This document shows, piece by piece, positions 2,665 to 47,384 of a DNA stretch of 64,000 nt. The notes beneath the pieces were generated by a model, which saw only the letters and a list, made by a program, of their open reading frames with translations, did no database searches and was not told the DNA's origin. Numbering within the stretch: position 1 is the stretch's first letter; each line of letters opens with the position of its first letter. A program made the translations under genes and the position numbers. Source of the DNA: Oegoconia quadripuncta (lineage: Eukaryota; Arthropoda; Insecta; Lepidoptera; Autostichidae); contig OX438759.1 of assembly GCA_949316235.1 (NCBI GenBank), positions 12,127,618 through 12,191,617 of the forward strand, written 5' to 3'.

Positions 2665-3018
2665 GAAGCACTCGTGGCGCAGTCGCATTCGCTACTCGTT
2701 TTCGATTGGCGAAGTTAAATAATGTCTGGCGCGATCAGTCTTTGGATGGGTGACCACTATTGACATTTTAATACGAGTGTTTGCGTGCTTCGGGGAGCAC
2801 GTTAAATAGTCGGTTCCGGTTGTCTTCAATTGAAGCCAGTCGTTTTCGGTGGCCTACAGGGACGATTTCAAAACTCTGACAGTCAGGTTGCCACTAGTCT
2901 GGTCTGATACAAATCCACCAAACAGCACTGGGCCCGCGTGGTGGATTATGGCCCATATCCTCTCGCAGTGACAGTGTGCCTCACCAGTGGGGACGTGATA
3001 GGCTGTTGATGACTATCC
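2665..3018 (+). mobile_element. 5S rRNA-derived SINE, copy 1 (most complete)
   Basis: Positions 2697-2755 align with the internal part of animal 5S rRNA. The box A region (GCGAAGTTAAATAATGTCTGG) is at about 2710, and box C (GGATGGGTGACC) is intact at 2744-2755. These are the internal RNA polymerase III promoter elements of a 5S gene. The 5' leader GAAGCACTCGTGGCGCAGTC recurs in all copies. The body continues into a 3' region (GGCCCGCGTGGTGGAT, CCACCAG-type and CACCAGTGGGGACGTGATAG), and the end GGCTGTTGATGA resembles the 3' end of RTE-type LINEs. That architecture fits a SINE with a 5S head and a LINE-derived tail. It is not a functional 5S gene: the acceptor ends and the middle have diverged. 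Confidence 0.8.
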
Positions 3019-3969
3019 ATGGACAAGAATATGCATACTGAGCTATAATAAACGACAATTTTTTGTTGTACCTACATGTTTTAATGATGTTGAGTCCTTT
3101 GAGAATATCCTTAATAATACAATACAACTGTCAAGTAATTACTGATTGTTGTTCATTGGTTACGCAGATTCAAATCTCGTAATTTTGTACCACAGGAAGA
3201 ATTTTCTATCGGTAGATAAAATAGCCGTAGCCGTATAGGTGTTCCTAAACTTTGCTTAATCGATGCTCAAGTTATAAAAGCAACTCAATCAAGTAGCAAT
3301 TTAACCTACGGTATCTCATATGTAGTACGGTTCGTTATGTTTCAGTATGCAGTTATAATTAGTTGGAACTCTGCCATCGTGATGCGTGGCGAATAGTGTT
3401 GGTCTCAGACTGTGAACTATAGCTTCATTCTGGCGATGTTATTAACCACATGCACACAACTGTCACCATGAGTGCGGGTCGGAACCTCGATATACGATGT
3501 TTGGATCATTATGTGCAATGGGCGTCGGCTACGAGTAAACGCGGCAGCACGACCACTGTAACACTTCCAGTATAAGTAGATATCATTGTGTGCCGTAGAC
3601 TGCACTTTTCACCAGCAAGACAAATATTAATAAATGAACTCCATAAAATAATGCCGTATTTTCTCTTCGCCAATTCCACAAAAGCCGATGACAAAAGTCT
3701 TAAATCAGTGCGACGGCTTGCACACTTATCGTGTCGTAAAGTGGACGTTAGCGATGCAATGTGGGGACCCAGGACGAGTAATAAATGAAACTCACAACTC
3801 GGTGTCACGTGTATATAATGCTTCCAAATAATGCAATCACTTATATACTAAACATACATATTAACCAGTTAAAATAAGAAGGGTATAGAGGTGCGTCATA
3901 CACGTACTACAGCGATACTATTAGTCCAAAAGATTAAGATCGCTCAGTATACCATGGAAAGTGCTGTTC
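3019..3969. other. Unassigned spacer with mutually antisense open frames
   Basis: Three open frames (3417-3605 minus, 3509-3808 minus, 3588-3788 plus) overlap each other, start from weak contexts and show no recognisable domain, so they are probably chance. Nothing else is identified here. Confidence 0.4.
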
Positions 3970-4170
3970 AGAATTACTTTGACGGACAGGATAGGCCAGA
4001 GAACCAAGATCGTTAATATAGCTCTGAAATTTAGCTGGATGAAATGGCTATAGGTAGATCATACCTGTCGCGGGACTGATAATCACTAGAGCAAGTGCTT
4101 TTGTTGAGTAGGACAGCAACTAGGCAAACGTAGTGTGAGCCATAGCTAACTGGAACTACATTCTGCGGCA
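3970..4170 (+). mobile_element. RTE-type LINE C-terminal coding remnant
   Basis: Conceptual plus-strand translation gives FRITLTDRIGQRTKIVN followed by IALKFSWMKW and DNHWSKCFW-like residues. This matches the usual C-terminal pattern of lepidopteran RTE-type LINE ORFs (LRDRIRNEEIRRRTKV, then LKWxWAGHIARR, then DNRWSKxVLEW). The reading frame is broken by stops and shifts, so it is a decayed relic. The assignment rests on motif recognition from memory. Confidence 0.55.
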
Positions 4171-4486
4171 TTCAGTTCTAGCCGACTGGATCCGTAAAGC
4201 TGAAGATTGAGCTCTGGGGTGTGCTTTACGTGCTAATGATTGTGAAAAAAGTAACAAGCTTTTCTGCAATATTTATATATATTTGACCTTTAAATTGCAA
4301 TAATCTTATATTATAACACAAAATTGGTAAGATGAAAGACGTCTTAAGAAGATGAAATATAGCGTCAGCGTCAAAACCATTGAGCAGTAATAGCCATCGG
4401 CCTAGTATATGGTCAGCGGTAAAAGCAGATACTTTCAAATATACCTGAACTTATATAGAAATAACTTTTGCAATCTAACTTCTAAC

Positions 4487-4618
4487 TAATATTATAAATG
4501 CGAAAGTGTAGATGTTTGTTTGTTGCTCAATCACGAAACGCGAATAATTCCCGCGGGATTAACAAATTTCCGCGATAAAGCTATTCAACGCAGGCGAAGC
4601 CGCGGGCGGAAAGCTAGA
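4487..4618 (+). mobile_element. Short interspersed repeat ending GCGGAAAGCTAG
   Basis: It starts ACTAATATTATAAATGCGAA and ends GAAGCCGCGGGCGGAAAGCTAG, the two characteristic ends of a very common non-autonomous lepidopteran repeat. Related pieces in this window lie at about 301-350, 31334-31505 (opposite strand) and 38478-38637. No coding capacity. The class is uncertain; it may be a Helitron-like or LINE-derived non-autonomous element. Confidence 0.65.
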
Positions 4619-5297
4619 AGTATTTATATACTATAGGTCCTCAGTATCGAATGTGACGACTCAGAAGAGAATGAAAGCAAGAGGGAAATGGAACAAAATA
4701 TACACGTGGAAAGCACACAATAAGAACCTAGTTGTTGGAATGTACCTTCCAAAGGAGGTGACATCTAATTTGAATAGATATGTTAGAACTGAATCGGCGG
4801 CGAGTTGATTCTAGCGGTTTTGGTTTGGCAATGTGTCAAGCAAGCCCCTGAAACTTCATCGAAATTTCCATAACTAGTCTTGAGCTCTGAGTGTTATCCA
4901 CTTATAGTCTCAGCTGAATATACAGCTGTTGTAGACACTTTCTTACCACGCTGAGTGATGGATGGACGTGACATGAAGAGCTGAATTTGCTTAGCACAAG
5001 TAATGTCGTCGCCTAGACAGCGATTTAGGTTAGATTAATAGTTGGTATTAATTAAGTAATCATACCCGTACCGTTTGTAAAATTAGGGCCCGGAGTTGAG
5101 TTGTTGTAGAAAATTGATCGCTTTAGAGTTTATGATGGAAAGTTCTAGAGGCTTATATCTTAAAGCTTTAATCCATCATACAAAATGGTCTTGTACAAAA
5201 TTTACTAAATTAATATAAATTTTATTAGGGACTAATTCATTAAGGAGTCTAAAGTCTTGTTAAAGGTATACATATACATTATGTACATACATATGCT
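4619..5297. other. Unassigned spacer
   Basis: No recognisable gene or repeat. The sequence is AT-rich, with ordinary low-complexity runs near 5200-5290 (TACATATACATTATGTACAT). Confidence 0.4.
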
Positions 5298-6155
5298 CAA
5301 GCCTGTTTCCCGTTGGGGTAAGCAGAGACTATTGATTTCCACTTGCAACGATCCTGACATACTACTTTTGCTTCTTCCACTCTCATCAAATGCTACATAC
5401 ACGCTCGTCGATTAGTAGTTGACCGCACCTGACCTTTTGTGAGTACGTCAGTAACTTGATTGACGTACGTCCTTCTTGGCCGACCTTAACCGACCCTTCC
5501 ATTCACGCTTTCGTTAATCTCCCATTGTATATACCTACACTATTCATCAAAAAACGACCCACCAAGTAAATCTCTATACAACGTCCTACATTTCTTGGTT
5601 TTGAAACTAGTTAGTAACTCAAACTGTACTATACCGATTTTTTCATTAAAATTTCCTACAGCCAGTATGTCACCAATTAAAATGATGCTGAGCTGCGAAA
5701 TTTCATTATTTAATCGAGTTTCTGGCAATAATGATTCATGCAAAGGAAATTTCTCATACATTTTTTGAGGACATCTGGCTGAAGAAAATTTTAATGAAAA
5801 AATCGGTATAGTATAGTTTGAGTTAGTAACTAGTGTCTAAACCCAGAAATGTAGGAAGTTGTATAGAGATTTACTTGGTGGGCCGTTTTTTTTATGACTA
5901 CTGTATATACAATGGGAGATTAACGAAAGGAATTTATAACGAAAGCGTGAATGGAAGGGTCGGTAAAGGTCGACCAAGAAGGACGTACGCCAATCAAGTT
6001 ACTGACGTACTCACAAAAGGTCAGGTGCGGTCAACTACTATTCGACGAGCGTGTATGAAGCATTTGATGAGAGTGGAAGAAGCAAAAGTAGTATGTCAGA
6101 ATCGTTGCAAGTGGATATCAATAGTCTCTGCCTACCCCAACGGGAAACGGGCTTG
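5298..6155. repeat. Large inverted repeat (foldback), arms about 370-380 bp
   Basis: The left arm 5298-5665 is the reverse complement of the right arm 5775-6155 at roughly 90% identity, with a 109-bp loop (5666-5774). The right arm has a few small insertions (for example GGAATTTATAACGAAA near 5930) and scattered substitutions. The plus-strand frame 5833-6155 of the right arm reads GKGRPRRTYANQVTDVL, then RRACMKHLMRVEEAKVV and WISIVSAYPNGKRA. This resembles a short C-terminal segment I associate with lepidopteran retroelement ORFs (assignment uncertain). A third, direct partial copy follows at 6177-6232. A transcript would fold into a long hairpin. Confidence 0.9.
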
Positions 6156-6238
6156 TTAGTTTATAGCACAGGTCAAGTTACTAACTAGTTTCTAGACCCA
6201 GAAATGTAGGAAGTTGCATACAGATTTACTTGTTGCGT

Positions 6239-6420
6239 GAAGCACTCGTGGCGCAGTCGCATGCGTTATTCGTTTTCCGATTAGCGAAGTTAAGCTATGT
6301 CTGGCTCGGTTAGTCCTTGAAAGGGTGACTAGATTTGAGTGAGTATTTCTGTTCCTCGGAGGGCACGTTAGAAAAGGCAATATAGTTAACTGTCTGTCAG
6401 ATGGCCACTAGTCTGACCAT
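6239..6420 (+). mobile_element. 5S rRNA-derived SINE, copy 2 (truncated)
   Basis: It shares the leader GAAGCACTCGTGGCGCAGTC and the 5S box A region (GCGAAGTTAAGCTATGTCTGG) with copy 1. Box C is damaged (GAAAGGGTGACT). The body is shortened, and homology is lost after CCACTAGTCTGACC near 6415. It sits directly behind the foldback. Confidence 0.75.
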
Positions 6421-6641
6421 CTGAATATTTTGGAAACGGGTCAGTTCGGGAAAAGACCACCATTTTTGGAAATTTCACATTTTGAGAAAGGGGCTTTATG
6501 AATCTTTCTTCAACGACGGGATAGGCAGCTACTTTATAAATCTACTATCATTCATATCTGAATATATTGGAAAAGGGTCACTTCAGGAATAGACTACCAT
6601 TTTTGGAAATGGCACATTTTGAGAAGGGGACTTTATGAATA
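6421..6641 (+). repeat. Two diverged direct repeats, period about 139 bp
   Basis: Unit 1 (6421-6502) and unit 2 (6560-6641) align over about 82 bp, both containing CCATTTTTGGAAAT, CACATTTTGAGAA and CTTTATGAAT. A third weaker piece of the unit (GATAGGCAGNNAC) follows each copy. Not coding. Origin unknown, possibly internal repeats of a longer mobile element. Confidence 0.75.
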
Positions 6642-7721
6642 TTCTCACTACATATTTCTGATAGGCAGACACGTTAGAAATCGTCTAGTGCCATTTTCTT
6701 CAAACGATACCCCTCGACCGTATTATGAAAATCCATTGTGACTCCATAGATATGATATGGGTTTAATTACAGGTATGAAAGTTCAAGCGGCCGTGGTCAG
6801 TTTTCTGACGGATGATGGATGACCACACCTTTAAGGCTGCGATTACGTAATTTTGCCCTTTCATCCCTAGGTATTGCCACGTAATGCGGAGCCGGGGTTA
6901 GTTATCGATTTTCCTACTTTGACTCGCTTCGGGATGATATTAATCGGTCTTCCTTATGTTATTCGAGAAAAATCGAGTAAACCTGTACCTGATGTTCGAA
7001 TTCACACAGTGGAATTTAGCTATTTTGACTTGCTAAATAGAGCCCAAAGAAAAAAGTTTGCGCCACTGTAGTTTAAGAGTTATTCAATATTTTAAATGAT
7101 CATTCTAGCGTCATGTGTTGTTGGATTCCTCATTCTCATACGTTGTAAATGTCAAAAAATTAGCTGAAATAGCTCCAAGTAGGGCCCAAAGAAAAAATAA
7201 ATCTGCCACGTTCCTCCTCCGTAGGATCCTCATTCCTCAGAGACTTGCTTTACCTATGATTATAATTTATATCCCCAAAAATTGTGCATAAATAGTGCCA
7301 TCGAAATGTACAAGTCCCATAAAGAGTTCTTCAAAAACAACGAAGTTACATACTGACTTATTGTTGGCCGCACTTTTTTTGTTCTCTGTGTGTGTTATTA
7401 CATTCCATTCTCCCGGACAAAGTTATCCGATTGTGATTTTTTGTCTGGTCTACAAAATGTCCGTCATCTGCGCTGCCCCTTTTCATTCAATTTATAAAAC
7501 TTTCAACAAGAACATCATATCTTATTAGAATACAATATGGCCCCTTAATGAGAGGAGACTGTGCTCCAGCCGCCATGGAGACAGAAACAACAACAGAATA
7601 GAAAGACGAAATTTCTTATGAGAAGCGTCGAAAAAATGTAAAATAATATAATTCGAATTGGGTTTTGGTGCGTATATGATGGAGGATCATACTACCACGC
7701 AACAATTATATTATACTTAGA
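6642..7721. other. Unassigned region with a duplicated short motif
   Basis: An open frame at 6874-7071 (+, 65 codons) has no recognisable domain. Its end (AGAGCCCAAAGAAAAAAGTT near 7038) is echoed at about 7181 (AGGGCCCAAAGAAAAAATAA), which suggests repeat-derived sequence rather than a gene. The frame at 7295-7528 (+) is hydrophobic in parts but unsupported. Confidence 0.35.
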
Positions 7722-8025
7722 GTGGGAAAAGTTGTTTGTCAATTTTTGGATCTCTCACAGTTGACAGACGGCTAATTTTGGGATGAATAAAAATCTTTTT
7801 ATTTATTACGTATAGCTGCTGGAGTAGTATACGAGTAGCGTTAGTGAGAGATACACTACGCCTTGTCGGAGAAACGACCTGCAGTATGGCGGAACGGGCC
7901 AATGCCCCGCCCATTTTGATACCCCTCTCACACTGCCCCTCCGCGGATTGTTATTCTTCAAAACTCGACAGTTGACTAACTGTAAGGAGAAAGAAGGCTT
8001 GCTTGTTCTTGTTAAGCTGCGATAA
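7722..8025 (+). repeat. Dispersed repeat A, copy 1
   Basis: This aligns along its length with 29670-29945. Shared landmarks in the same order are GAGTGGGA, GGATCT, AGATACAC, CTGCAGT, and the well-conserved end GTTGACTAACTGTAAGGAGA / AAGAAGGCTTGCTTGTTCTT. No coding capacity was seen. It is a two-copy family in this window, class unknown. Confidence 0.65.
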
Positions 8026-9817
8026 TAAAGAGGCCAGCAGTTGACCCTTTTTCATTGTAATGGCCTCTACAAATCTTTTTGGAAGGTCTAACGAATGTGT
8101 TACACATACATACCTATATAAGGTAAAAGCAACGTTTCACCATATATTTTGGCCGAAATATTGATATTCCAGCCAGCAATATCTTCATATAACACAAGCT
8201 CACCTTAAAAGATGAATTATTATACTTGTCTTAAAGACATGATGGACGCCTAAACAAAATTCCACATAGGTTTCGCACTTTTTCCGCAATATTCCCCTCC
8301 TTTTTCTTTCGTAAAACCTTTGTGTCGAATTACTTAGATAAAATTGTTGTTCGGAAATATCTCGACTGCTCTCGCATTCTTTTGAAGCATCAGCAAAGAA
8401 CTGATCGTATAGATTTACACAAACGATTTGTTATCGCATGATTTTCTCCCGATATTATTCCAGTATTGTTGTTTGTTGGTTTTGTCTTGACATTGATAAA
8501 TTAATCTGTGCTAATATGAAAAATAGAGTGATTACGGTTTCATAATGCACAAAGACAATACCATTAATGTTATGTATACCGCTCCTCAAGGGCGACGGCC
8601 GCTCCTAAAGACTTTCATGCTAATTTAAAAGCGTTAAGAGCTTCATAAAGCATTTTTCATGGGACTTATTTACTGCCCGTTGAATTTCTTTTTTGTTGCA
8701 ACGTTGTGGCGGATTTATCAATGTAGAGGGGTGACTTGGGGTGACAGGGGTGTTAAAATTTAATATACCGTCCAAGTTTCTTCATTACGATCGGCGTCGC
8801 GACTAACGATTGGGTATCTGGGAATAAATTATCGAATCTAATATTATTTCCTTGGGTCGAAACTCGGAGCGAGGCCCATGAAATGTAAAATATTATTTTG
8901 CGAGGTTCAATTAAATTGTGTTGTTCCAATAAAGTACCTGATGTCGGACAAACACAATATCTGGTCTTAAACGAGGATACCCTGCACAATGAGAATAAGG
9001 TTAACGACATTACGCATATCACACACGTGAAGTTGAACACTAAGCCTCTCGCTTTAATCGGAGCATTTGTCCTAATTACTTACTTGGCAATCCCAAAATT
9101 TTTTTGGGAGTTCCGCAATGACGGACGCTGCTGCTTTTGCTGTTTTGGTCATGACCACTTTGTCGCCTTCTAAGACACCCTGGGGAATTGCGATGAGGGT
9201 CTATTCTACAGGCAACCACACGGGCATTACCCAGTATACCTAAATACGGGAAGATTGGGAAAAGCATAAATTTCTTTCAAGGTATAATAGTAGACACGAT
9301 TTTAGACAATTACATCCGGATAAATTGGTATTGAAAAGTTATTCTTCTTTGCTTTTTCTCAAATCAACGATTGAGCCTGCACCATGCATTTAAAGTTTAT
9401 CTACGTCGATACTTAAAGACGAATTCTACAATGTCTGTGCATGTGAAAAATAAAATTTCTGTGAGAGCATTCTTACAAAAGAATTCTAGACAAATTATGT
9501 CAAATTAATTCGATTAATATCATGAGCCATCGAGTGTACACATCATTAAAAATACTTCTGTTTTGCGTAAACTTTCATTTGGAATAAATAACGTGTAAAA
9601 AAATCAGACACATTACTAAGATGTCCACGAAAGCTTGGCTTTGTGTAAAAGCAGCCAAATGGATTTGTCTTTTATAAAATAACGGCCCAATTATTTTACC
9701 TTTAAAATCGATTTAGCCAATTGAATATCAACGTTAATGACTTTACATGAACTTCAAATTAGAAGTAGATACGGTAATTGTACAAAAAAAATGTTTTTTG
9801 TTCTAACTACGCTATAA
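8026..9817. other. Unassigned AT-rich spacer
   Basis: No gene is recognised. Frames at 8753-9040 (-), 8898-9173 (+) and 9076-9267 (-) overlap in opposite senses. The minus frame near 9080-9240 is locally GC-richer and could be old mobile-element coding sequence, but I cannot place it in a family. Confidence 0.35.
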
Positions 9818-9900
9818 TTCATCATCATCAGCCCGTAAACATCCCACTCTAGCGATATAGGCCTTCCCTCGTATATGAGGGAGTATTTCTTCATTACTTT
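9818..9900 (-). mobile_element. RTE-type LINE or SINE 3' end
   Basis: The sequence CATCATCATCAGCCCGTAAA, followed by CATCCCACT and TATAGGCCTTCCCTCGTA, is the reverse complement of the widespread 'AGGCCT...AGTGGG...GGCTGATGATG' 3' terminus of lepidopteran RTE LINEs and SINEs that share it. Truncated. Confidence 0.65.
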
Positions 9901-10480
9901 TTAGTAATCCTTTTCCAACCACTCTATATATAAAAGCTATATTATATTAGTTTTCTTTAAATCTAACAATTACTTTCAACCAACTGCTGTCTAGACAAAT
10001 TGACTGTTGTAGAGAATCCACGTCGGAATTTCGAAATTGGCCCATAGCGATATCCTTCCTCAACTGTCAGCATTACGTCTCCGGTTTCCTTTGCTGGGGA
10101 TCTGATGCGGGAATACCGCAAAAAAAGCCAAAAAGGGAGAAATGATTTCGTATCACATTTAATAATACTTCAGTTGAGCTTCGTTCGTCATTTACGAATT
10201 ATATTTTTCTCTTAAGAGAATTAATCACAGTAATAATTAATATTGAAGTACTTATAAATTATTCGCTACGTTGAATCAGACCTTGTCGCTTGGTAGCGCT
10301 TAAAATAAATATTCTCTAATTTTCACCAGGAAAGAAAACAGGAAGAGTCACGAATTAATTCGAATAAAGAATTTTTTGTAATATAAAAAATACGAAATTG
10401 ACTTCGTTTTATTCGATGCTAATCTTTTGTCTACAAAGAACTTCCACGTGGCTCGATCGTGCCGCATTCTATCAAAAGGT
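9901..10480. other. Unassigned AT-rich spacer
   Basis: Nothing recognisable beyond AT-rich sequence and short homopolymer runs. Confidence 0.4.
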
Positions 10481-10488
10481 GCTGCATT

Positions 10489-10600
10489 TTTTTTTTATAA
10501 ATTGCATGAAGAGCACGTAACGGTTTTCCCGGGCAGTTAGCTCGGTGCATCGGTCGGTAAAGGGGTCGCATCGATCCGGGCAGGTCGTCGCCGCCTGGTA
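10489..10600 (-). repeat. GC-rich SINE-like repeat B, copy 1
   Basis: A GC-rich core at 10528-10593 (CCCGGGCAGTTAGCTCGGTG, GGTCGCATCGATCCGGGCAG) matches 11829-11894 at about 85%. A T-run lies about 30-40 bp upstream in both copies, so the element is probably a poly-A retroposon on the minus strand. No SINE head (tRNA, 5S or 7SL) was recognised in the core. Confidence 0.6.
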
Positions 10601-10639
10601 GCTAGGTGCACCCCACCGCTACAGTCTGCACCATGAAAT

Positions 10640-11559
10640 TTTCGCTATTATTTACAACCGGTTAGCGCCCGACCTCGAACACTCCCGAAAGTGAAGATAA
10701 GCGTTCTTCCAGAAACTTCATGGACAGAGTGGATGTTTTATCTCAAATAGCCAGTGCACTAGTCTAACTATAACTATAATATTGCTGCTCGGCTGTAGGT
10801 TAGTCATGCTAACATTTAAAGAAAGCCTCGACCTCGATATCTACAGTAATATGGTCTGACCCCATACTGGCATGTTTCTTTGACACTTTTTACACGTTTG
10901 AGTTAATATAGGGGCCAACCTCTTATTCAGCTATCACTTAGTTAAATCTAGAAATAAGCCAAGTTCTAAGAACTTCATCCGTGCTTAAACAAAACCGAAA
11001 TATATTTTATGTTTTTTCACTACAGTTTTTTAAAACTGTAGTGAAAAAAGTGTAGTTTATTTATAAACGACTTCACTGAGACCGACATACGTATAGCAAC
11101 TAGTAAGTAATCTGTACTTACATGTTGAACAACTGTTCAATAAATTGGTATATTACTGAATGTGCTAAGTGTACAATCTTTTTAAAAATTTCAAGATTTT
11201 ATTATTTCGAACTTTTTCATGCGTAAATTGTGACGATTTATATGGTAATAGTCATCTGCTCATTTGGATTGGTGAGTTATAACTTTCCAAGTTTATGTGA
11301 TGATGCAATTAGTGAGTGAGTCAATGAGTGCCATTATCACTTTTTTGGGAATCATATCTCAGTATTACATTATTCAAGTTATTGTTCCTAAAATAGATTT
11401 TCAAGTAGAAAAACTGTAAACGCAGTTCAAAACACGCAGCACCGTACGAGCGGTTTTTTTTAAGAACTTTTCTATGCGCCCTGCCGTACCCTATATAAGT
11501 CACCGAGGTGTAGACCCAGATAGTATTTAAGAACATTACTATAAGCATAATCTTATAGA
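10640..11559. other. Spacer with a perfect palindrome
   Basis: AT-rich with no recognised gene. It contains the 18-bp palindrome at 11012-11049, listed separately. Confidence 0.4.
11012..11049. repeat. Perfect 18-bp inverted repeat, 2-nt spacer
   Basis: TTTTTTCACTACAGTTTT (11012-11029) is followed after TT by its exact reverse complement (11032-11049). It could form a tight hairpin or cruciform. No TIR element is evident around it. Confidence 0.9.
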
Positions 11560-11640
11560 GTTCATTTAACACATTATCACGTAAACAATGTGGCCTACTG
11601 CTAGACATAAGCCTACCCAAGCTACGGATAACATCGATTT
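11560..11640 (-). mobile_element. RTE-type LINE/SINE 3' end remnant
   Basis: The minus strand reads CTTGGGTAGGCTTATGTCTA then GCAGTAGGCCACATTG, a decayed form of the RTE 3' end 'GAGGCCTATGTCCAGCAGTGG'. The 107-codon minus-strand open frame at 11321-11644 runs through it and is therefore not a host gene. Confidence 0.5.
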
Positions 11641-11804
11641 TCATGCCGTAATCGCCTCACTGTTCAGGCGGGTCGGAAACCGGATATTCTCAAGGGATCT
11701 TGAACATTGACATTATTAAACCTCTCCGTTAATCCTCTAATCTCCTCTCATGACACCTACGAAAAGATAAGGCACGGGGCTGATTGTACGATATTTTTAA
11801 CAAA

Positions 11805-11915
11805 TACAATTTTTTTTTAACTTGACTTCCCCGGGCTGAGTTCGGTGCATCGCTCGGGGGAAGGGGCCGCATCGATCCGGGCAGCTCGTCGCCGGGGACT
11901 GTGCATGGCGCCGTA
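11805..11915 (-). repeat. GC-rich SINE-like repeat B, copy 2
   Basis: The core at 11829-11894 (CCCCGGGCTGAGTTCGGTGC, GCCGCATCGATCCGGGCAGC) matches copy 1 at 10528-10593, again preceded by a T-run (near 11810-11819). A possible third fragment is near 48548-48575 (CCCCGGGCGGGTCGGTGCAT). Confidence 0.6.
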
Positions 11916-11939
11916 CCGACACCACATGTCATTTACCAC

Positions 11940-13127
11940 GGGGTTTTTGAATGTTTTATGATAGAGTTTTCGAATTCGAATGGATCAGTCTTAATTTAAA
12001 ATCGTTTGGTTTGTTACAAGATAATATAGGTACGTAGCTCTGTTGTTATTATAATATACTGTCGTACAGTAATAATTACCATCAACTCAAGTTTTTTTTT
12101 TTGTCATCGGTAATTCTTTTGGTTGCCATTGTGGTGAGAGGATTGGCCAGCCTAGACACTGCGTTACCGTGTCTAGCTATTGCTACATTCTGGGCCGTTC
12201 TGAAGCGGTAGTAGATTGGAAAAATAATTGTTCCCAATAATTTTTCTGGTGTTCACAATGCTGGAAGATTATGTTTCAACAAATCATAAAATAAAATAAA
12301 AATTGAGCAGACTATCGCAGAGAGCGCTTCATGGTCATGCTTGCCATCATCTAATTAAATAGAAATGTTGCTACCATAGAATTGGTCACAGAATTCATAA
12401 ATTGGAACTAATACCTGCCCGCGCTTGCAACCATTTTCCAACACCAGCTCCATATAGGTTTATTTGAACCGCTTCCAAGTAGAACTCCACCTTAATTGGA
12501 CTGCTGTATTTTAATGGGCTTTTTAAATCATTAGAGTTTGCTAAATTGAAACTTATTGCCATTGCCGGTATAGAAAAGGAATAGGATATATGTAAATGAA
12601 CCGCCTAAAATTGGCAAAACAACCGATTTCAGTTAGGTTCTACTCTCTTTATCCGGAGTGCATCAAGATATGATGCATCAGTGATGGATGATTTAACCCT
12701 ATGAAACCAAAAACTATCATTAACATAGGTTAACAATTGCCGGGTATATGGTTCAACATAAATTAAAATATGCATACAGATGAGCATAGAACCTGTTTTG
12801 GAATCGATTAAAAAACTAGGAGGATCAAAAGGGCGTATCATGCAAAATTTTTCTGTTTAGCTTGCGTCGCTAAATTTGGTACCACGTAACCTAGAAGTAA
12901 ATTATGGTAAAGTATATCATATGAACTGGATTAGTATATAAAAAAATAACATTGCATAAAAATATTAACACCAAAACATCTAAATCTAAAATGGCTACGG
13001 CCTACGCATTCAACGGCTACGAAGATTCACCGTAGCCACTTGCGTAGCAACTTATTTTTGTTAATAAATATCACTACTTTGTTAAGGTAGTGATAGCACA
13101 TTATTTATATGTACTTTATGTTTACTT
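11940..13127. other. Unassigned AT-rich spacer
   Basis: No gene is recognised. At 12993-13048 two short inverted units occur (GGCTACGG with CCGTAGCC, and CTACGCA with TGCGTAG), giving local dyad symmetry. Confidence 0.4.
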
Positions 13128-14649: not shown

Positions 14650-15606
14650 AAAAATGATCTCCAGTCATCATCGCTCGCCCATGGAACATCGTCAACTTCT
14701 AGCTGCGATGGAGGAGGAAGTGGAGATGAGATTCGTTCTAACAGGGAGTCAATGGTGGAGGGTACGAATTCGACATTAAAGGCAGTGTCCGACTGGGGCG
14801 ACGCCAATCTTGTCGAATTCAATTCTTCCAAAACACAGGCGTGTCTGTCTATTCACTAGCAAACGGAGTGCTTTCCACCTCACTCCGACTTTCCGGGATG
14901 TATCCATTCCAATCTCTGACCATCTCAACCTCTTGGGTTTGGAGTTAACCTCGAGTCTGAATTTTGGGCGCTCCATCGAATCGAAAGCGAAACTAGCAGC
15001 TAAGAAGCTTGGAATTCTCTCTAAGGTCAGGCGGTATTTCACACCAAAGCAGCTGCTGGAGCTTTACCAAGCTCAGATCCGCTCGTGCATGGAATACTGC
15101 TGTCACCTCTGGGACGGATCAGCCAAGTACCAACTGGCTGCACTCGATTCTGTGGAACGACGCGCCATAAGACTCATAGGCGACTCAACGGTCACCGGCA
15201 AATTGCAAAGCCTTGAACACCGCCGTAGGGTCGCATGCCTTTCAGTTTTTTACAGGATACATTTCGGCGAGTGTGCGATGGAATTGTATGATCTTATTCC
15301 ACCGTCCCCTTTCCATCTTCGGACAACCAGGCGCGGGGGGGGGGGGGTTTCCATCCATATGTTGTCAACATACCGAACATCCGCACTAAGCTCTTTGCTT
15401 CATCATTTATAATGCGGACTGCTAAGGTATGGAACTCACTGCCCGCGTCGGTTTTTCCCGACACTTACAACCTTGGGATCTTCAAGTCTAGAGTGAATAG
15501 GCATTTACTGGGTGCGCGTGATACATCTTCGGCAACATCGTCACTTTCCATCAGGTGAGATTGTAGCCAAACGCGAAACCAGTTTTTAATAAAAAAAAAA
15601 AAAAAA
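14650..15606 (+). mobile_element. Non-LTR retrotransposon 3' part with decayed RT ORF
   Basis: This is the largest coding relic of a LINE in the window. Translation from about 14653 gives VSDWGDANLVEFNSSKTQAC. A one-base shift near 14840 moves to the frame 14845-15330 with LNLLGLELTSSLNFG, KAKLAAKKLGILSKVRRYF, LYQAQIRSCMEYCCHLWDG and the HRRRVACLSVFYRIHFGEC block. A G13 tract at 15335-15347 precedes a further shift, after which 15412-15558 reads RTAKVWNSLPASVFP, NLGIFKSRVNRHLL. The order of these blocks is that of the C-terminal part of lepidopteran jockey/CR1-like ORF2 proteins. The element ends in a poly-A tract at about 15590-15606. The 5' half, including the catalytic RT core and endonuclease, is missing, so it is 5'-truncated and dead. 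Codon content is more GC-rich than the flanks, as expected for an inserted coding fragment. Confidence 0.9.
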
Positions 15607-36000: not shown

Positions 36001-36588
36001 TGAAATATCGTCACGTATCCGGACCACGTCCCTTTGGAAAACTTGTGGTATACTGTGAGGAGTGTTCAACTCTGTGAATACACAGTTTTGTAGTCAGGCC
36101 TTTTCTAGTCCCAGTTTGGACTTTTCCGAAGCACGTACTAAATATTTAGTAAATGTAAATTTTAAATAAATACCTACTTTTAAAATATTATTTACTAGTT
36201 TTCAGCACGCGGTGGATCTCGATTATAATAGAAACAGTTATATTTTAAAATACCGCTGGCGCCATCTTGCATTTTTAAATGGAACTATCGCCATCGAAAT
36301 TTGAAGATTACAATGTTTTTTTAGAAAGAATTAAGAAAAATACTGAAATACGGGATTATTCATTTTTTTAAAGTTCGTTCCGGAGATATTGGCTTTTGTT
36401 TATGCACGGGTTAGCTCTTGACCTGAATGGCACCTGTTTGAAATATTTCTCCACTCCCTTTGCCCTAGGAGTGGAAATTGCTTCTTAATGCTAGTCTATA
36501 TACATAGCAATGCACCTGTCAAATTTCATTAACATCTGTCCACGCGTATGGACTCTGCAATGATCTCTGAACAGTCAACCAGCACTAG
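36001..36588. other. Unassigned AT-rich spacer
   Basis: Nothing recognised. Confidence 0.4.
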
Positions 36589-36719
36589 TAACATTATGAC
36601 GAGCGCGATAAACGTTTATGTCGCGCGACATAATATTTGTCCCGTTTATTCGCTTGGACGAAATATACAACTATACCACTCTCACTCCTACGTCGCGCGC
36701 GACAAACGCTGTCATGCTA
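36589..36719. mobile_element. Palindromic MITE-like repeat, copy 2
   Basis: This is the partner of 1096-1223. The right terminus CTGTCATGCTA complements the left terminus of copy 1. The 83-codon plus frame 36548-36799 passes through it and is not a gene. Confidence 0.75.
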
Positions 36720-38637: not shown

Positions 38638-39788
38638 AAAAAATAAATATTGATAAATAATAAATGAATACTACACCATGGACGGAAGCAATTCACGTTT
38701 ATTACCCTGAATCACAATGTAATGTACAATTTTATGTGCTGTCATTGAAATTCATTGCCGCATCAAATCGTGGAGCTTTCCATAAAGCCGTGGTGAAGGT
38801 TCAGGACTTACGAGATTTGTAGTTTCAACTTTGCCCTTTTGTTAACAACAAGGATGTGAGAAGTTAGAGTAAATAGTGAGCATATTTAACTACAACAGTT
38901 GTCTTGTGGATTATGAGGCACTTCGACTCTCTCGCATGTTCCAAGATTTGTATAATTTAGGAAATTAACTTCTACAAATGTTGTTAATATTAGCCCCGGA
39001 AGCAATGTTGTTCTTTTTAGTACGCGCTGTTTAATTATTTCATCTCTGTGAAATCTGTGGACATAATTTTGGCACGGCATTTGCAGTACGGAGCACGTGA
39101 CTTCCATGTACCTACTTACCGTCTATTTCGATGTACTAGCCATGCTATTTCTGTTAGTCTGAACGCGGTCTAGTTGATAGACAACACCTAGGTATACCTA
39201 GTAGTTGACTGTAAGTCTAACAATAGATGATTTACTACTAAGCAATGTTTGGAATATTTACTCGAATCAAAATATAACTGGAACGCCAGACTGACGAAAT
39301 TTTTGTGATGAGTGTCTGTTTTTTCGAATTGTGAATGACTAGTCTTAACGAATGTATCCGTGAACTAATTGTGGACTTTATCCTTCTGTTTGTACTGAAT
39401 AAATATAAAATTGTCAATAGCTTGACATCTATTAATTGGAAGAAAAGATGACCCAAATCTTTCACAAAACTACCATAGGTTATGCTATATATAAGTACTG
39501 AGTGTATAGTTTGGTGTGTGGTCAATCTCACTTCATTTTCTAATGAATGTCATCGTCGTTTATACGGACGTTAAGACGTGATTGATCTTATTCGTAGTAT
39601 CTCTATTTCTTTGTAGTTGTATCGTTCTTTGTATGGCATAATCCGGAAACGACAGAAATTGTAGGCATCACATAATTCTACTCGTCCTCCAATTAACTAA
39701 ACCCCTCGGTAAATGAACGTTGAAAAAACAAATATTACTCTTATAAGAGTAGTTATTAATATAGATAATAGAACTTTTATTTATGCAG
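38638..39788. other. Unassigned spacer left of the 6.7 kb element
   Basis: Minus frames at 38886-39107 and 39238-39531 (97 codons) have no recognised domain. Immediately left of the element insertion, the minus strand stays open for about 40 codons in the frame that arrives from 46775-46513 on the other side of the element (see findings). Confidence 0.4.
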
Positions 39789-39794
39789 TACCTA
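39789..39794. repeat. Left target-site duplication TACCTA
   Basis: TACCTA lies directly before the CACGG terminus, and the same six bases follow the other terminus at 46507-46512. Confidence 0.85.
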
Positions 39795-39812
39795 CACGGT
39801 AAAAAAGGATTT
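39795..39812 (+). repeat. Left terminal inverted repeat
   Basis: CACGGTAAAAAAGGATTT, matched at 46489-46506 in inverted orientation with two mismatches. Confidence 0.85.
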
Positions 39813-40650
39813 CTTGAAATAAAGCAAATATCTTTCATTCAAGATAATAAAGTTTTGTATATAACCAAACACTTCAATGCTCTTGGATTAAGATTTACAG
39901 ATTTTAATTTAATTGAAGACAATTTGACTTAAATAAAAATAATAGCGATTCTTACTCTAAAGTCACAGCTTTCAATTAAATGAAGAAACTATCTTGCCTT
40001 AAATTAAAGTATTTGTAATACTACACCCAAGTTAGGTGGTCTTAGATTAAAAATAAATGGATTTTATTTAAGATAACGATTTTCTTAGATTAAGCTGAGT
40101 AAAGCATAATTAAAACAATATTGTTATTTTAAGATAGTCATGTTTTATATGACAAAGAAATCTAGTTCCGCCCAAGCAAAACTGCTCTCAAATTAAAAAC
40201 AAATTAATTAAATTAAAACTTCCACTTTCTCATCTTAAGAGAGTCATATTTTGTATTATAAAGAAGCCTATCTTCGACGAAGCACTGCCTGCTCTTACGT
40301 TAAAAGACATTAATTTAAGTTAAGCGGTTAGGTAAATTATATTAAAACAATATTGTTTTATTTTGAGAAAGTCATATTATCAATATAAGTTCTCTCAGTC
40401 TTTCTTAAAGACCACCGCTTCACAAAAATAAGATAATGCAGTCTTAATATAATAGAGAAGCCATTTTAAAACAAGATTATCAGGCTATTGAAAGAAGAAA
40501 ATGAATCTGTTCTTCAGACAATATTATCTTAGATCAGGGTAGCAAAAGCCTTCATTTAAGAGTATATTCATTTAGATAGAATAAATAATATTTGTAATTG
40601 AGATACTCGTTTATTTAGTTTAAGAATTTGATGGACTTCATCAAAGAAGA
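39813..40650. repeat. Left subterminal motif array
   Basis: The array has frequent TTAAG / CTTRRATTAAG-type motifs, for example CTTGGATTAAGATT, CTTAGATTAAGCTG and CTTAAGAGAGTCAT, with diverged tandem units of roughly 110-125 bp that share AAGA-AGTCATAT-TT. Such clustered subterminal motifs are commonly binding sites for the mobilising protein of a DNA element; here that is inference. Confidence 0.65.
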
Positions 40651-41340
40651 TGTAAGTATTGCAAATAGATAATGCATTACCATATACCTTACATAAACAA
40701 GAATTTTTCTTCAATGTAACAGTCATGCAACTCGTACTCGGTTACATAATTTTTTAAATAAAATCCCAATCAATGTTATTCTTGGATTTTTACTTACTAT
40801 TTTTATGTAATCCTTCATGAGTAGACAAATGAATGTTACACAAATGAAATACCCTTGTTTTAGATAAGGCATCAGGTAATGCGTTACCTATTGGCAATAC
40901 TTACATTTCCTTGGATAAAATCCATCAACAACTTTCGTTTATGTATAGGTATCCCCAGGAAACTGAAAATTAAATTGTTGTAATTTTAAAATTTATAAGT
41001 GTAGTAGAAGTAGTGATAATAAAACAAAAAAAATAAATTCAATCTTTATTAATTAATCATAATAATCACAATACCTTCTGTAGGGTTAACTGGAAGAGAT
41101 CTCTGTAGAGATAAGCTCACCTCTGTACTTATTTTCTGACTGATCTGTTTGTATTTTTTGTGTAATAAAGAATAAAGTAAGTAATAATCACAATTAACAG
41201 CAACAGTTGGTTTTACTGCTAAATTCACGTCGTATTCACTCAATTTTTTCCCCTAATTTTAATATATCCGCTATGTACGGCGTCATATTATCATATTTGG
41301 TTATTTATTATTTCAGTTATTTCATAAACACAACATTGTA

Positions 41341-43337
41341 TTATAATAAAATGTGGTCACTCGCCTTAGGACATTTAACATTAAAGTGATAACATTTAAA
41401 CAATATATCAACAAAGTCAAAGGTATATCTAATTTTGTCAACCACCAAGTACAATTGAATATTCTGAAGGTTACCCAATAATGTTAAGTACACAGGCTGT
41501 TTTCCTTTAAGTGCTTCCTCTTTCTGTTGCTCGATTATGTTGAGTATATTCGCTGGATTCTAAAAAAAAAAAGAAATATTGCAACTAACTTTCATATACT
41601 TATTCCTATAATACTGTCAATTTATTAGAAATCAAAAATAATTCACCTCAATCATTAACATTATGCTCTCAAGGCATTCTTGTACAGAGATTTTCTCTTT
41701 TTTATTATATCTTGCCTTAGTTGGTACTAAATGTACTAATAAAGTTTGTGATGAGATTTTTTGATCTGAAAATAAAAAAAAATGTTAACCACATAGTCAC
41801 AGTAACTAGTATTTTACAGACATGCCTCATATTATTCCACACCATCAACTCAGAACAACTATAACACTGTCTTACCTTCAAGGTCAATGTAGTTTAAGGG
41901 TGTCTCTAAAGCTGTCACTGTGTATTTTTCTTTGCAGTAAATAAGATCTCGAAGAAGTGGTCCCAATTTTTCAAAAAATTGTTACAGTTGTCGAGACATA
42001 AAAATTTAAAATAATCTTCAATCTGAAAACAAAAAAACTAATCACCACACGAGTAATATCACGCGAATATTTCAGCACATAATACCTCTACTTTCAAGAT
42101 ACATTATACATATTACGTAGTTATCGTTTTATACATTTATTCCATTATATGATGGCTGATAAAAGTGGAAATAACAGAAGAAAATTATGCATTTTTGTAC
42201 ATAGTTAATTTTATTAAAATTAATTTTAATGACAAAAATGTGAATAATTTATTGCGTGCATAAATTTACTGGCATCTATTGTTACTGCCTATACTCTGCC
42301 AACAATTAATTATGAAATTACACAAAAAAAATGTATTTTCAAAATTGTTCAGTAAAAAAAAATTTATCCTCTATTTCACAAAAATAAAATAAAACTAACT
42401 TGTGTATCCAAGTATTCTGCTATTTTTTTCGTAGATCAATTCTACAGCCCAATTCTGGACACAATTCCTTTAATTGTGATAAATGTGATTCATGAATTTC
42501 ATTCTCTGAAAACAAACATAGAAAAATAAGACAAACAAGTAATTTTTTCTGGCAACTTTTCAGTACTTACACATATTACTAGTCTTCTAAAATAGTCAAA
42601 GCAAGTCAAAAAAGTAAAGTAGTAGGTACTTAGTATTTTTTTGCTACAACAATAGAAAGGAAGGATATGTACATCTTCGCCCTGAATAATCCCTATTTAG
42701 GCAGATATAAATTCTTAAGAGTTTGTGCACAGCCACATCCACCGAGAACGAGATTTAGCCCCCAAAACTATGACATGCGTGATGAACCGAAATGCCGGCA
42801 ATATAAAAGAAGTCTGAACTTGTCTACTACGCCTTGAAAAACGATCACCGTATTTCAGGTCGAAATATCATTTGTCCGAATGACACCACATGAGTAAAGA
42901 AACTATTACGGAATTTCATTACTCTTGAGGTGACATGTTTTTAGGATGAGACGTTGCCGACCTAGGTAAGGAAGGATATCCTATGGCCGGGTGCCGGCAT
43001 AATTTGATTGTCTTGTGTGGAAAAAAAAACGAGGAATCAAAATGAACCACTTACCCTGGGTGCGAGGGACACACGGTTGCAGTCACATTGTTTCGAATTC
43101 AGTTCGAACTAATCTCGTTTCTCAGTGACAGAAGCGGCAATGAACAAGGAGTCCACTTACTAAATACCTTTGTATGTAATTGTACTTACTTTGAAAAGCT
43201 TCGATTATCTGTTCAGGTGCACCCCAACTTCTCAATAAATTATCCATTGTCGTTCGTATTTGGCTTTTAATATGTTTAAGCAGGAACAAACACTCTTTAC
43301 ACAACTCTAAGAAAAGTTTTTCGTCCAGTGATGACAT
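41341..43337 (-). CDS. SAM-like domain protein gene, five exons, two homopolymer frame breaks
   Basis: Exons on the minus strand: 43337-43190 (ATG start), 42505-42400, 42022-41876, 41765-41647, 41559-41341 (TAA stop). Every intron has GT...AG ends (donors GTAAGT, GTTAGT, GTAAG, GTGAAT; acceptors TTTTCAG three times and TTTTAG). Phases agree at all four junctions. The predicted product is about 246 residues. Residues about 34-85 (LLRSWGAPEQIIEAFQ ... LKELCPELGCRIDLRKKI) fit a sterile alpha motif, with the W, the F-x-x-N-E-I turn and the G-x-R-x-x-L helix. The last 70 residues (QPVYLTLLGNLQNI, LVVDKIRYTFDFVDILFKC, KCPKASDHI) resemble a C-terminal block I associate with uncharacterised multi-copy SAM-domain proteins of arthropods and fish. 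Exon 2 lacks one A in an A-run (plus-strand T7 at 42423-42429), and exon 3 lacks one T in a T-run near 41976-41981. Each break shifts frame, so the copy is either recently dead or mis-assembled at homopolymers. An AATAAA-type poly-A signal lies near 41043-41048. SAM domains usually mediate protein-protein interaction; the role here is unknown. Confidence 0.75.
42506..43189 (-). other. Intron 1 of the SAM-like gene, with a GC-richer insert
   Basis: This is the longest intron. The middle (about 42670-42966) is less AT-rich than the rest of the element. It is bracketed by AAGGAAGGATAT at about 42658 and 42967, a possible 12-bp target duplication of a nested insertion. I do not recognise the insert. 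Confidence 0.4.
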
Positions 43338-43844
43338 CCGCAAGCGCGCGCGCCCCACTAGAGATGTTCCACGCACTTCACTATAATCGATATATTAATA
43401 ATAATAAAAAAAGTTTTTACAGACTACAAGTAAATAAATATGTAACTATCAAATTGAAGAATCAAAATTATTGACAATGATTAGTAAAGTTATCTATGCC
43501 TAAGAAATATTATTTGTACATTGAATGAAACTATGTACTGTTGTACACGATAAGTATTACATGCTAGTACCTACGCTTATTTTGATATCAATTTATGTAT
43601 AAGTATAAGTGCCGATCTAATTTATGGGTAGGCAATGTGTCTTTGAGACTACATAATTTGTAAAGAGTTTGGTTGAAGGATGAACATCGAATGTATGGAA
43701 GTGTGTGAATGCTACTTGCTTCCTTGATTGTCATTTTTATTCCTTCGATCATTTAATAACATCAGGCAAGCGAATGGTATGGCAAGTTGTAAAGCTTATA
43801 TAAATTGTAGGTTTTTTAATTTATGCATAACGGCATAAGTACTT

Positions 43845-44060
43845 GACCTCAATCCCACTTGATGTTAAACGAAGATGAGGTCGAAGGTGGAAGCGTACTG
43901 ACCTAAACCCCAACATATTTGGGGGACTGGCTATCTTATCTCTGACAACCGGAACACAACAATGCTAACATTGTTGCTTAGCGGCAGATTTAGATCAGAT
44001 GGTGGTAGCTAGCCATGCGGACATTTAAAATGCACTACCACCAACCATTACATATTACAA
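43845..44060 (+). mobile_element. Nested LINE 3' region fragment
   Basis: AACAATGCTAACATTGTTGC, TTAGCGGCAGATTTAGATCA, GGTGGTAGCTAGCCATGCGG and CACTACCACCAACCATTA correspond to a lepidopteran LINE 3' region whose usual form includes 'CAACATTGCTGCTTGGCGG...GGTGGTAGCTACCCGTGCGG...TACCACCAGTAA'. It is inserted inside the 6.7 kb element, upstream of the SAM-like gene. Confidence 0.6.
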
Positions 44061-45885
44061 ACAGAGAAATACAAACTCTAGAGTAATACTTTCCCTTCTG
44101 TATTCGATTGTATAAACTTAAATCTAATAAACTAAAAAAAATTCGACACTGGTTTGGGTGTTGAAGAACTGATTACTGACATTTTTAGAAGCCATGTAGA
44201 TCATAACTCAGTATCATAGAATATATAATAATCGATTTGTTATAAAAATATTATATACTTGACATATAATAAATAGGACAGAATAACGTCAGACATAGTG
44301 AGGATCATTCATCAATCTGAATACATGATATTTAGGATTTGTTTTCACGAGTATGACACTTTTTAAATTTTATAAATCCATCACGAAATTACGGAGATAT
44401 TAATTATTGTGTGTGGTGGTGCAAACCAATATGCAAGTTCGTTGATCAGTTTCTACCTGGAAGTAAATTATGCAACTAAATTAAAAAAAATTGTTTCTAA
44501 AAACAAGTTTTTATATTACTTAAATGTTACTTTAAAGTTAATCGGTGGGTTAAGCATCAAACTGTCTAGTAGTAAGTTTTTGAATACGGCTTTGTATGAT
44601 CAGGGCAGATCTTGTTCCTCCAAAGGGCAGAACATCTACTCATTCAACATACATTCATAATATATTAGGTAGATCATAATTATAATTTTGTTTGTGTTTG
44701 GCTTTGTGTAGCAGAGTTAAAAATGAGAAATAGAATTTCTTTAAAATGTTAATTTTCGTTACCTACGTCAAATTTTCTTCACATAATAAAAAAACAACGA
44801 AAAAACCATATTCTTGATAAGAACTGCGACCAGTAAAATGATGAGAAACATGGTAAATATGTTAATATTGTACTTGAAAACAATATGTCGAAATGGTTTT
44901 CACAACAGTACGAAGTACCTACTTTTGTTTGTAAGGTGTGTTCTCTCGTCACTTCATCATTGTACACCACGTTTTTTTCTGATTTTATTGTCATTTGGAA
45001 CACGAAAGAAAAGTTTATTAGATGTAACCACTACTATTTGTACAACATGATACGATACAATATAAACGCGACACTTCGCTAATACAGACTAAGCCTCGCA
45101 AGTCCCGTACAAATACCTACTCCTGCGTCTGCGTCTCGTGCCGGAACGTCATAAACGATCGCACTTCACAGCGCGTGTTTTTTGAAACTCTTCTGCTAAA
45201 GCCACTGTAATTTCTATATTATTTGTTCGATTATGATTTTTTTTCAGTCATGTTAATAGTTTTTCATATGGAAAAATCTGTATTCTTAACAAAAAAAAAT
45301 TAACGATCCTCATTGTATGCTCGGAAACCTTACACTATCCTGCCTGTTCAATCTAACATATGATCCGAATTTTATAATTCCCTTGCTTTTGTAGAGCAGT
45401 ATACGTAGTATATGAGTATGTGGCCCACCTGATAGCACTAGGCACTTTCGAACTGGCCTTTCATTGTGAGTATTTACAGTACATCTTGTGTGGCAGATAT
45501 TTCCGATCTCAGTAATAAGGAGACGACATAATATTAGACAGAAAGCTTTTCAAAATATGTGCCACTTAGTTCATAATAGATGCACCTAGCATCTATTTTT
45601 CCAGATTAAAAATTCAGATAAGTGAAAAAGCGATATACATATCACTTTCGTTGTGATTTACGGTGGATAGTGTTACTATCGAATTACAGCTTTTTAGCAA
45701 GTTCTCTGTCGATTGTATATCACAACATACTTTTCTCTTCTGAAATCGATTATTAAACTTCGCAATGTCACATCCCTTTATTTGCCATGCAATGTGATTG
45801 GTCAACGACAAATTCGGACAATGCACGTGGAGCCGGATCGTCAAGAAATACTCTCTTGTAATAAACGAATCGCTATAGGACCAAG
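44061..45885. other. Right interior of the 6.7 kb element, no gene recognised
   Basis: Open frames at 44409-44660 (+), 44779-45003 (-), 44814-45082 (+, two frames), 45614-45889 (-) and 45713-45904 (+) are short and mutually overlapping. A locally GC-richer patch at 45110-45210 (CTGCGTCTGCGTCTCGTGCC) could be a promoter or an old insert. I see no transposase motif, but short exons could be missed. Confidence 0.35.
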
Positions 45886-46488
45886 ACATTGTTTACTTGG
45901 GTAAAAAAACGCATGGTTTCAAAAGCTCTTTACTCAAGGAATAAGTACTTCTTAATACAAGAAACTAATTTACTTGAATTAAGAAATTTTGGAATGTAAA
46001 AGTTTTTAATATGAAGAAATGCATAACTCCTTAAGTCAAGAAATTCATTTACTTAGATAAAGAAAGTTTGTGATTTTGTACTGAGAGTTCTTGACGTTCA
46101 AACAAAGATATTTTAAATCTCAGCTTAAAATTATAACATATCCATCTAAAGAAAAAAAGCTCAACTTGAACGAATGTTCTCTTGAAACCAGTTTGTAAAT
46201 TAATTTCATCCAAGATTTGTATTACTTAAACCAAATATTTTTTAAAATTTCTTGAAGAAAATATTGTTTAAAACAGAAATAACATTATTTACTAAGACAG
46301 AGACCTCAAAAATGTCTTCTATTAAGAATATTCTCTTGAAACAACGTATTTTGGCAGATTCTAAACAAGAAAACGGAAACGTTTAATTGAAGAACGTTAT
46401 TTTAATCGAGCAAAATAAAGTCTTAAAGCTAGACATTATGTATTTAAATATTCAAAAGAATAAAATGTCTTGGACCAAAGACACATCC
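45886..46488. repeat. Right subterminal motif array
   Basis: Motifs such as TTACTTGAATTAAGAAA, CCTTAAGTCAAGAAATTC, TTACTTAGATAAAGAAAG, TTTCTTGAAGAAAAT and CTCTTGAAACAA recur roughly every 30-60 bp. They are related to those of the left end. Confidence 0.65.
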
Positions 46489-46506
46489 AAATCTTTTTTT
46501 TCCGTG
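46489..46506 (-). repeat. Right terminal inverted repeat
   Basis: On the minus strand this reads CACGGAAAAAAAAGATTT, the partner of 39795-39812. Confidence 0.85.
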
Positions 46507-46512
46507 TACCTA
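46507..46512. repeat. Right target-site duplication TACCTA
   Basis: TACCTA directly follows the CCGTG terminus and matches 39789-39794. Confidence 0.85.
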
Positions 46513-46775
46513 GAGAAGTTTTTGTCAAACACCGAAATTCGTATTGAGAGATTAAAAGAAAGTAATTCCAGTCGCGTCTCCAATAAATTTTTTATTAAAT
46601 ACCTATTCAGATCACCCAATTCATTAATACCATTAGCATAAAAAGATGCGTGAATAAAATATTGAATGATCTCCTTTATACTGGCAAAGTTTCCAGCGGG
46701 ATATTGCTTAATGTAAAAACTTTGGACCTCGATTTGGTTGAATGTAAATGGACAGTTTTCGACTGCGTGCTCCAC
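46513..46775 (-). other. Unrecognised open frame cut by the element insertion
   Basis: The minus strand is open for about 87 codons from 46775 to the insertion point, unusually long for this AT-rich sequence. It includes CPFTFNQIEVQSFYIKQY and IIQYFIHASFYANGINELG. In the empty-site order the frame stays open about 40 more codons on the left flank. No family is recognised; it may be a host or mobile-element coding fragment. Confidence 0.35.
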
Positions 46776-47384
46776 CCCGATTCATGTTTCACTAATAGGT
46801 ATAAAGTTTTTGGCTGGTTGTTTCGTACATTTTGCAATGTTGGATTTCGATGCATGTGAAATACTGCCCCTCACTTTAAAATTGTAGGTAATCTGAATTT
46901 ATGATACGTGGACTGTTCCGTAACTAATTCTATGAAAACAATGCCAGACAATATGTAGGTAGATTAAGGTCTAAACTCAACTGTGCAAGTGAAATGTTAC
47001 GAAAAACTCTAAATTGACGTCTATAAATTAGACCAAACCTGTATAAAATCTCCATAAATGTGTGGAAACTATCCCTGCAAAATCCGCAAAAGTAACTTCG
47101 CTCGTTAGAATTACAAAATCTAAAGGTAAAGTTGGATGCCGACAAAATGCTAACGATCGGAATGAAATTCGTATAGCTCTGAATTTTCTAGCTATTATTA
47201 TTCTAAAGTTTCTCTCTCAACTTGATGTTACAGAGAAAATAGAATTTTTCAATTTCAGTTAATCTAATATCAGACTTAATTTCATGCAAATGGTATAGAA
47301 TAGAATGCATCTGCATAATTTTCATCACAACTATACCAACTCCATTTCTAAAGTCAGAGTTCCGTTACATTTTATACATGGCCC
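46776..47384. other. Unassigned AT-rich spacer
   Basis: A minus frame at 46930-47145 (71 codons, with YFCGFCRDSFHTFMEIL) is of the same sense as 46513-46775 and could belong to the same old coding unit. I cannot identify it. Confidence 0.35.

Follow-up and report, generated by a model that had tools for sequence, protein, structure and literature searches.

SAMD3-like proteins form a family that is multi-copy in animals and whose members are usually seen as ordinary host genes, and Polinton/Maverick elements carry polymerase B and integrase genes, are much longer than 6.7 kb and have termini other than those described below. Among the transposon superfamilies that were compared with the present locus, EnSpm/CACTA and CMCT elements have CAC..GTG termini with duplications of 3 bp (EnSpm) or 2-5 bp (CMCT group), hAT6 elements give 6-bp duplications, and the KDZ elements (Kyakuja, Dileera, Zisupton) give duplications of 7-8 bp, with CA..TG termini and no terminal inverted repeat (TIR) in Kyakuja, according to the sections of the source covered here (PMC12730594). 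Duplications of 6 bp are likewise given for Polinton/Maverick and for IS3EU and GingerRoot, where TA..TA termini are found always in IS3EU and mostly in GingerRoot, with occasional TG..CA, in the covered part of a second source (PMC10045372). Finally, Dada elements are described in the portion covered of a third source as duplicating 6-7 bp, lacking a TIR and targeting small RNA genes (PMC3706591).

Ends of the Element and Flanking Duplication

At the locus described here, within a window of 64,000 nucleotides from the lepidopteran Oegoconia quadripuncta (the whole stretch of DNA that was analysed), an interval of about 6.7 kb (39795..46506) lies between two copies of the hexamer TACCTA, a putative target-site duplication with its left copy at 39789..39794 and its right copy at 46507..46512. 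The interval is bounded by 18-bp TIRs, CACGGTAAAAAAGGATTT at 39795..39812 on the plus strand and CACGGAAAAAAAAGATTT, read on the minus strand, at 46489..46506, which match ungapped and in inverted orientation at 16 of 18 positions, and the hexamer stands directly outside CACGG on the left (from 39795) and directly outside CCGTG on the right (to 46506). These 18-bp ends with 16 matches, their CACGG start and the 6-bp direct repeat had all been reported in an earlier sequence-only reading of this DNA and are plainly visible; the locus carries two features of class II TIR transposons, terminal inverted repeats and a flanking duplication. The bases adjoining the two ends are themselves complementary (A/T, then T/A), which gives the junctions several readings. 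Ends drawn as CACGG leave a duplication of 6 bp, ACACGG leaves 4 bp (ACCT) and TACACGG leaves 2 bp (CC); if the ends are asymmetric, a duplication of 5 or 3 bp would also be possible. CACGG ends with a 6-bp duplication would be the simplest reading of this single copy.

Read in this way, the element shares its CAC..GTG termini with EnSpm/CACTA and CMCT elements and differs from them in the duplication, which at 6 bp exceeds the 3 bp of EnSpm and would come down to the 2-5 bp of the CMCT group under another placement of the ends. With hAT6 the comparison is reversed: the 6-bp duplication is the same, and the six translated frames of the element hold no remnant of a hAT transposase. The 6-bp duplication is also that of IS3EU and GingerRoot, whose combination of TA..TA termini with 6 bp is not found here, since the element offers either CACGG with 6 bp or TACACGG..CCGTGTA with 2 bp. 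It resembles the duplication of Dada, from which the element is set apart by its 18-bp TIR and by a window with no Rfam match at gathering scores, and equals that of Polinton/Maverick, in contrast to which the element has no polymerase or integrase domain by six-frame Pfam search. The CA..TG termini of Kyakuja are shared, whereas a duplication of at most 6 bp together with a TIR separates the element from KDZ. As far as their descriptions in the covered sections go, none of the superfamilies compared fits CAC..GTG ends with 6 bp, and CACGG ends with a 6-bp duplication were not reported in the literature searched, which left subscription papers and Repbase reports mostly outside its scope.

These comparisons bear on the possibility that the element descends from a known superfamily, whether hAT with 6 bp, KDZ-like, or a CACTA-like CMCT or IS3EU type whose ends were misread, and that it has lost the transposase of that superfamily but kept or captured the SAM-like gene described below. 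The CAC..GTG ends, as in EnSpm, and the 6-bp duplications of hAT6 speak for such an origin (PMC12730594, covered sections), as do the alternative junction readings, which permit shorter duplications or TA..TA ends. Against it stand the lack of any transposase remnant in six frames, the mismatch of EnSpm and CMCT duplications with the CACGG reading, and the TA..TA ends required of IS3EU, which at this element pair with 2 bp only (PMC10045372, covered part). We treat such a source as a tentative possibility, on the unlikely side; it overlaps with the explanation that we prefer, a decayed TIR transposon mobilised in trans, and adds to it only where the element came from. Because the element is a single copy without a transposase, we make no superfamily assignment, and its source may be hAT6, of which it would be a non-autonomous member, or a CMCT element whose ends have been misread.

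A different account holds that there was no insertion at all, and that a host pseudogene lies in AT-rich DNA between inverted ends that arose by chance next to a frequent hexamer. TACCTA is indeed common, occurring with its complement TAGGTA 82 times on the two strands of the window, and the A-rich ends are easily matched: a pattern built from both ends, allowing up to 3 mismatches, finds the two ends alone in the window, and at least two matches are found in 10 of 100 shuffles. When the 60-bp ends are locally aligned without constraint, the result is similarly unexceptional, with a score of 28 under the best of 500 shuffles (45). What gives the ends their weight is that they stand precisely next to the direct repeat. 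When the window was scanned for equal 6-bp direct repeats beside inverted ends matching at 16 of 18 positions, at spacings of 0.5-20 kb, none of 20 Markov shuffles contained such a pair, while the real window holds the pair of the element and three others, two of these within one long palindrome. The presence of those other pairs and the single copy favour chance; the empty shuffles, and the likeness of the two arms described below, which exceeds its controls and which chance ends do not predict, argue against it, and we regard the account as improbable.

The palindrome that holds two of the other pairs spans 858 bp (5298-6155) and is about 85% self-complementary. An AATCTA 6-bp repeat beside 16/18 inverted ends lies at 2122-12983, its ends 10.9 kb apart, with no convincing longer likeness by eye. 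Elsewhere in the window, a dispersed repeat is present at 1086-1223 and 36579-36719 (86.5% identical).

No further copy of any piece of the element was found in the window at E <=0.01, the best match at a threshold of E 10 having E 0.10. A scan of viral contigs with the end pattern returned 22 loci; in a blast comparison of the two element arms with these loci, the 10 matches listed all involved the left end, nine of them spanning 18 bp and the tenth 25 bp, and none of the 22 loci was matched by the protein of the gene model described below. Since the matches listed are short and confined to the left end, and the protein has no match, we rejected the 22 loci as relatives and take them as chance.

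Subterminal Arms

Inside the TIRs, the outer 600-800 bases at each end of the element are AT-rich. The left arm (39813..40627) holds TCTTGAATTAAG-like motifs in both orientations, and the right arm (45881..46488) holds the same TCTTGAATTAAG-like motif. We compared the two arms, TIRs excluded, by counting shared 12-mer pairs with up to 2 mismatches. The observed count of 435 pairs lies above the maxima of all three sets of controls, namely 291 among 19 GC-matched windows outside the element and 301 among 22 windows from its middle (comparison windows that overlap one another, with GC matched within 6 points), and 426 among 100 Markov shuffles. At word sizes of 14 and 16, none of 100 shuffles reaches the observed value, by a narrow difference at size 16 (87 vs 86), and at word size 10 it is reached by one of 100.

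The TCTTGAATTAAG motif, which was picked by eye, has 11 occurrences with up to 2 mismatches in the 1.47 kb of the ends, none in the 5.2 kb of the middle and 6 across the rest of the window (57 kb), compared with a mean of 0.76 and a maximum of 3 in 200 Markov arms. Exact CTTGAAT is found twice in the ends vs 9 times elsewhere, and for a 17-base string with at most 4 mismatches the corresponding counts are 6 and 10. A free motif search in the arms gave a best 12-mer count of 16, inside the range of 10 shuffles (8-19), and for this reason we place weight on the arm-to-arm test and not on the motif. Judged from that likeness, which chance ends would not predict, the two ends of the element probably belong together. 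The earlier description of the locus as a bona fide insertion is strengthened by termini, duplication and arm likeness and tempered by the single copy and by a 6-bp duplication that is one of several readings.

A Spliced Gene Model on the Minus Strand

Between the arms, a five-exon model can be drawn on the minus strand, in which all introns are GT..AG and the phases fit once frame changes are read through. Exon 1 (43190..43337) starts with a start codon at 43337 and ends at donor GTAAGT; exon 2 (42400..42505; acceptor TTTCAG, donor GTTAGT) and exon 3 (41876..42022; acceptor TTTCAG, donor GTAAGA) each contain an internal frame change; exon 4 (41647..41765) lies between acceptor TTTCAG and donor GTGAAT, and exon 5 (41341..41559; acceptor TTTTAG) runs to the first stop. 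The model protein has about 250 residues. The frame is broken at least twice, in exons 2 and 3, both times at A/T runs, and either decay or a sequencing or assembly error may have caused these breaks. A further frame change near the end of exon 5 is probable, judged against sequences that we take to be relatives.

The codon-position signal of the model is modest, with an excess of G at position 1 (p 0.02) and no significant overall asymmetry (p 0.12). Open frames alone are little proof, since the region 39600-46700 is overlapped by 21 ORFs that are 60 codons or longer. Just downstream of the model, a 67-codon ORF on the minus strand (41049-41252) has a position-1 G excess like that of the exons. 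A promoter-like scan of 43200-43600 returned 3 sites vs 2.2 in shuffles, under a bacterial model that is uninformative for this element.

The sequence-only reading had named the product SAM-like, and on this point the spliced model stands while the label is weak and the frame broken. The N-terminal 59 residues match SAM_1, over part of exons 1 and 2, at 12.9 bits and E 0.15, below the cut-off of 23, and the same residues score higher, yet still below cut-off, with DED (15.4 bits) and HTH_26 (14.9 bits). With the whole protein, HTH_26 leads at E 0.0055, below its cut-off, and SAM_1 is not among the matches up to E 10; no Pfam family exceeds its own cut-off. As DED and HTH_26 outscore SAM_1 and all three are sub-threshold, SAM may be only one way to read the N-terminus, which is small, helical and possibly DNA-binding. 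A PDB search gave nothing better than E 0.059.

The C-terminal exons presumably resemble SAMD3-like proteins, and the element's protein would share with that family a SAM-like N-terminus and a similar C-terminal part. In an alignment of exon 5 with three presumed SAMD3-like rows, its identity to the first row is 27%, a lead only, and a Pfam scan of the alignment returned no family (4/4 rows scanned). Relatives of the protein were absent from viral and prokaryote contigs, in which animal genes should be scarce.

The gene lends itself to a second interpretation, in which the SAM-like protein serves an undescribed superfamily of autonomous elements as its transposase or as another protein that transposition requires, this copy being a dead one. 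It is the sole gene found between the ends; its N-terminal part gives the sub-threshold match to HTH_26, a DNA-binding fold; and the presumed C-terminal resemblance to a family that is multi-copy in animals offers a lead. Set against this, the protein has no recognised catalytic motif and no Pfam domain above cut-off, its length is short for a transposase, and titles and abstract openings in the literature gave no link between SAM genes and TIR transposons, in a search that had subscription papers and Repbase reports mostly outside its scope. We consider a transposition role of this kind very unlikely.

Remaining Interior and Flanks

In a Pfam search of the six frames of the whole element, none of the frames had a match at E <=5, and no transposase, recombinase or polymerase domain was found, in agreement with the initial reading, which had found no known motif of these kinds. 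The search replaced stops by X; as a control, one of three given frames of a viral contig returned a DnaJ match, and all three frames of a presumed reverse-transcriptase tail stayed without a Pfam match, from which it follows that the method works and can overlook domains. A 210-codon ORF elsewhere in the window (14780-15412) has no Pfam match and looks like a non-LTR reverse transcriptase tail.

The internal stretch 43400..45880 contains no gene recognised by six-frame Pfam search or ORF codon signal, and four of its longest ORFs have no clear codon-position signal. Between the left arm and the gene lies an imperfect palindrome of about 300 bp (40628..40928), whose 70-nt outer arms are 81% complementary; it has no duplication at its edges by eye and may be a nested insertion. 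No tandem repeat reaches a score of 40 in 39000-47000, and the flanks of the element (4 kb on each side, about 8 kb in all) contain no Pfam domain in any of 12 frames up to E 1.

Discussion

That the locus is a TIR insertion with defined boundaries and no recognisable transposase is supported by its termini, its duplication and the likeness between its arms. We think it likely that this stretch of about 6.7 kb is a cut-and-paste TIR transposon of class II in a decayed state, mobilised in trans, in which the gene serves as helper or cargo; counting against this explanation are the single known copy and the three other pairs of repeats and inverted ends in the window. Under this model, the 18-bp inverted repeats together with several hundred bases of similar AT-rich arm would form the transposase-binding region, for which this layout is usual, a transposase from another copy or family would bind the arms, and a staggered cut at insertion would duplicate TACCTA, 6 bp being the simplest case. 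The minus-strand SAM-like gene, now broken in frame, would be likelier to act as helper or cargo than as a catalytic transposase. The element is probably non-autonomous, and we infer both its mobility and its mobilisation in trans from this arrangement.

Should copies of the element turn out not to carry the SAM-like gene constantly, the locus would be an ordinary decayed, non-autonomous transposon. If, on the other hand, full-length copies always carry the SAM-like gene, a protein family usually taken for ordinary host genes would be transposon-borne, and a group of transposons whose movement enzyme has gone unrecognised would become testable. At its furthest, the locus would be a dead copy of an undescribed animal superfamily with CACGG (CACNG) termini, CTTGAATTAAG-type subterminal arrays, 6-bp duplications and, as its characteristic gene, a SAMD3-like gene of the transposition machinery, a proposal to which we give little credence; if it were true, the SAMD3-like genes of animals, human SAMD3 included, would be domesticated or resident copies of a transposon gene.
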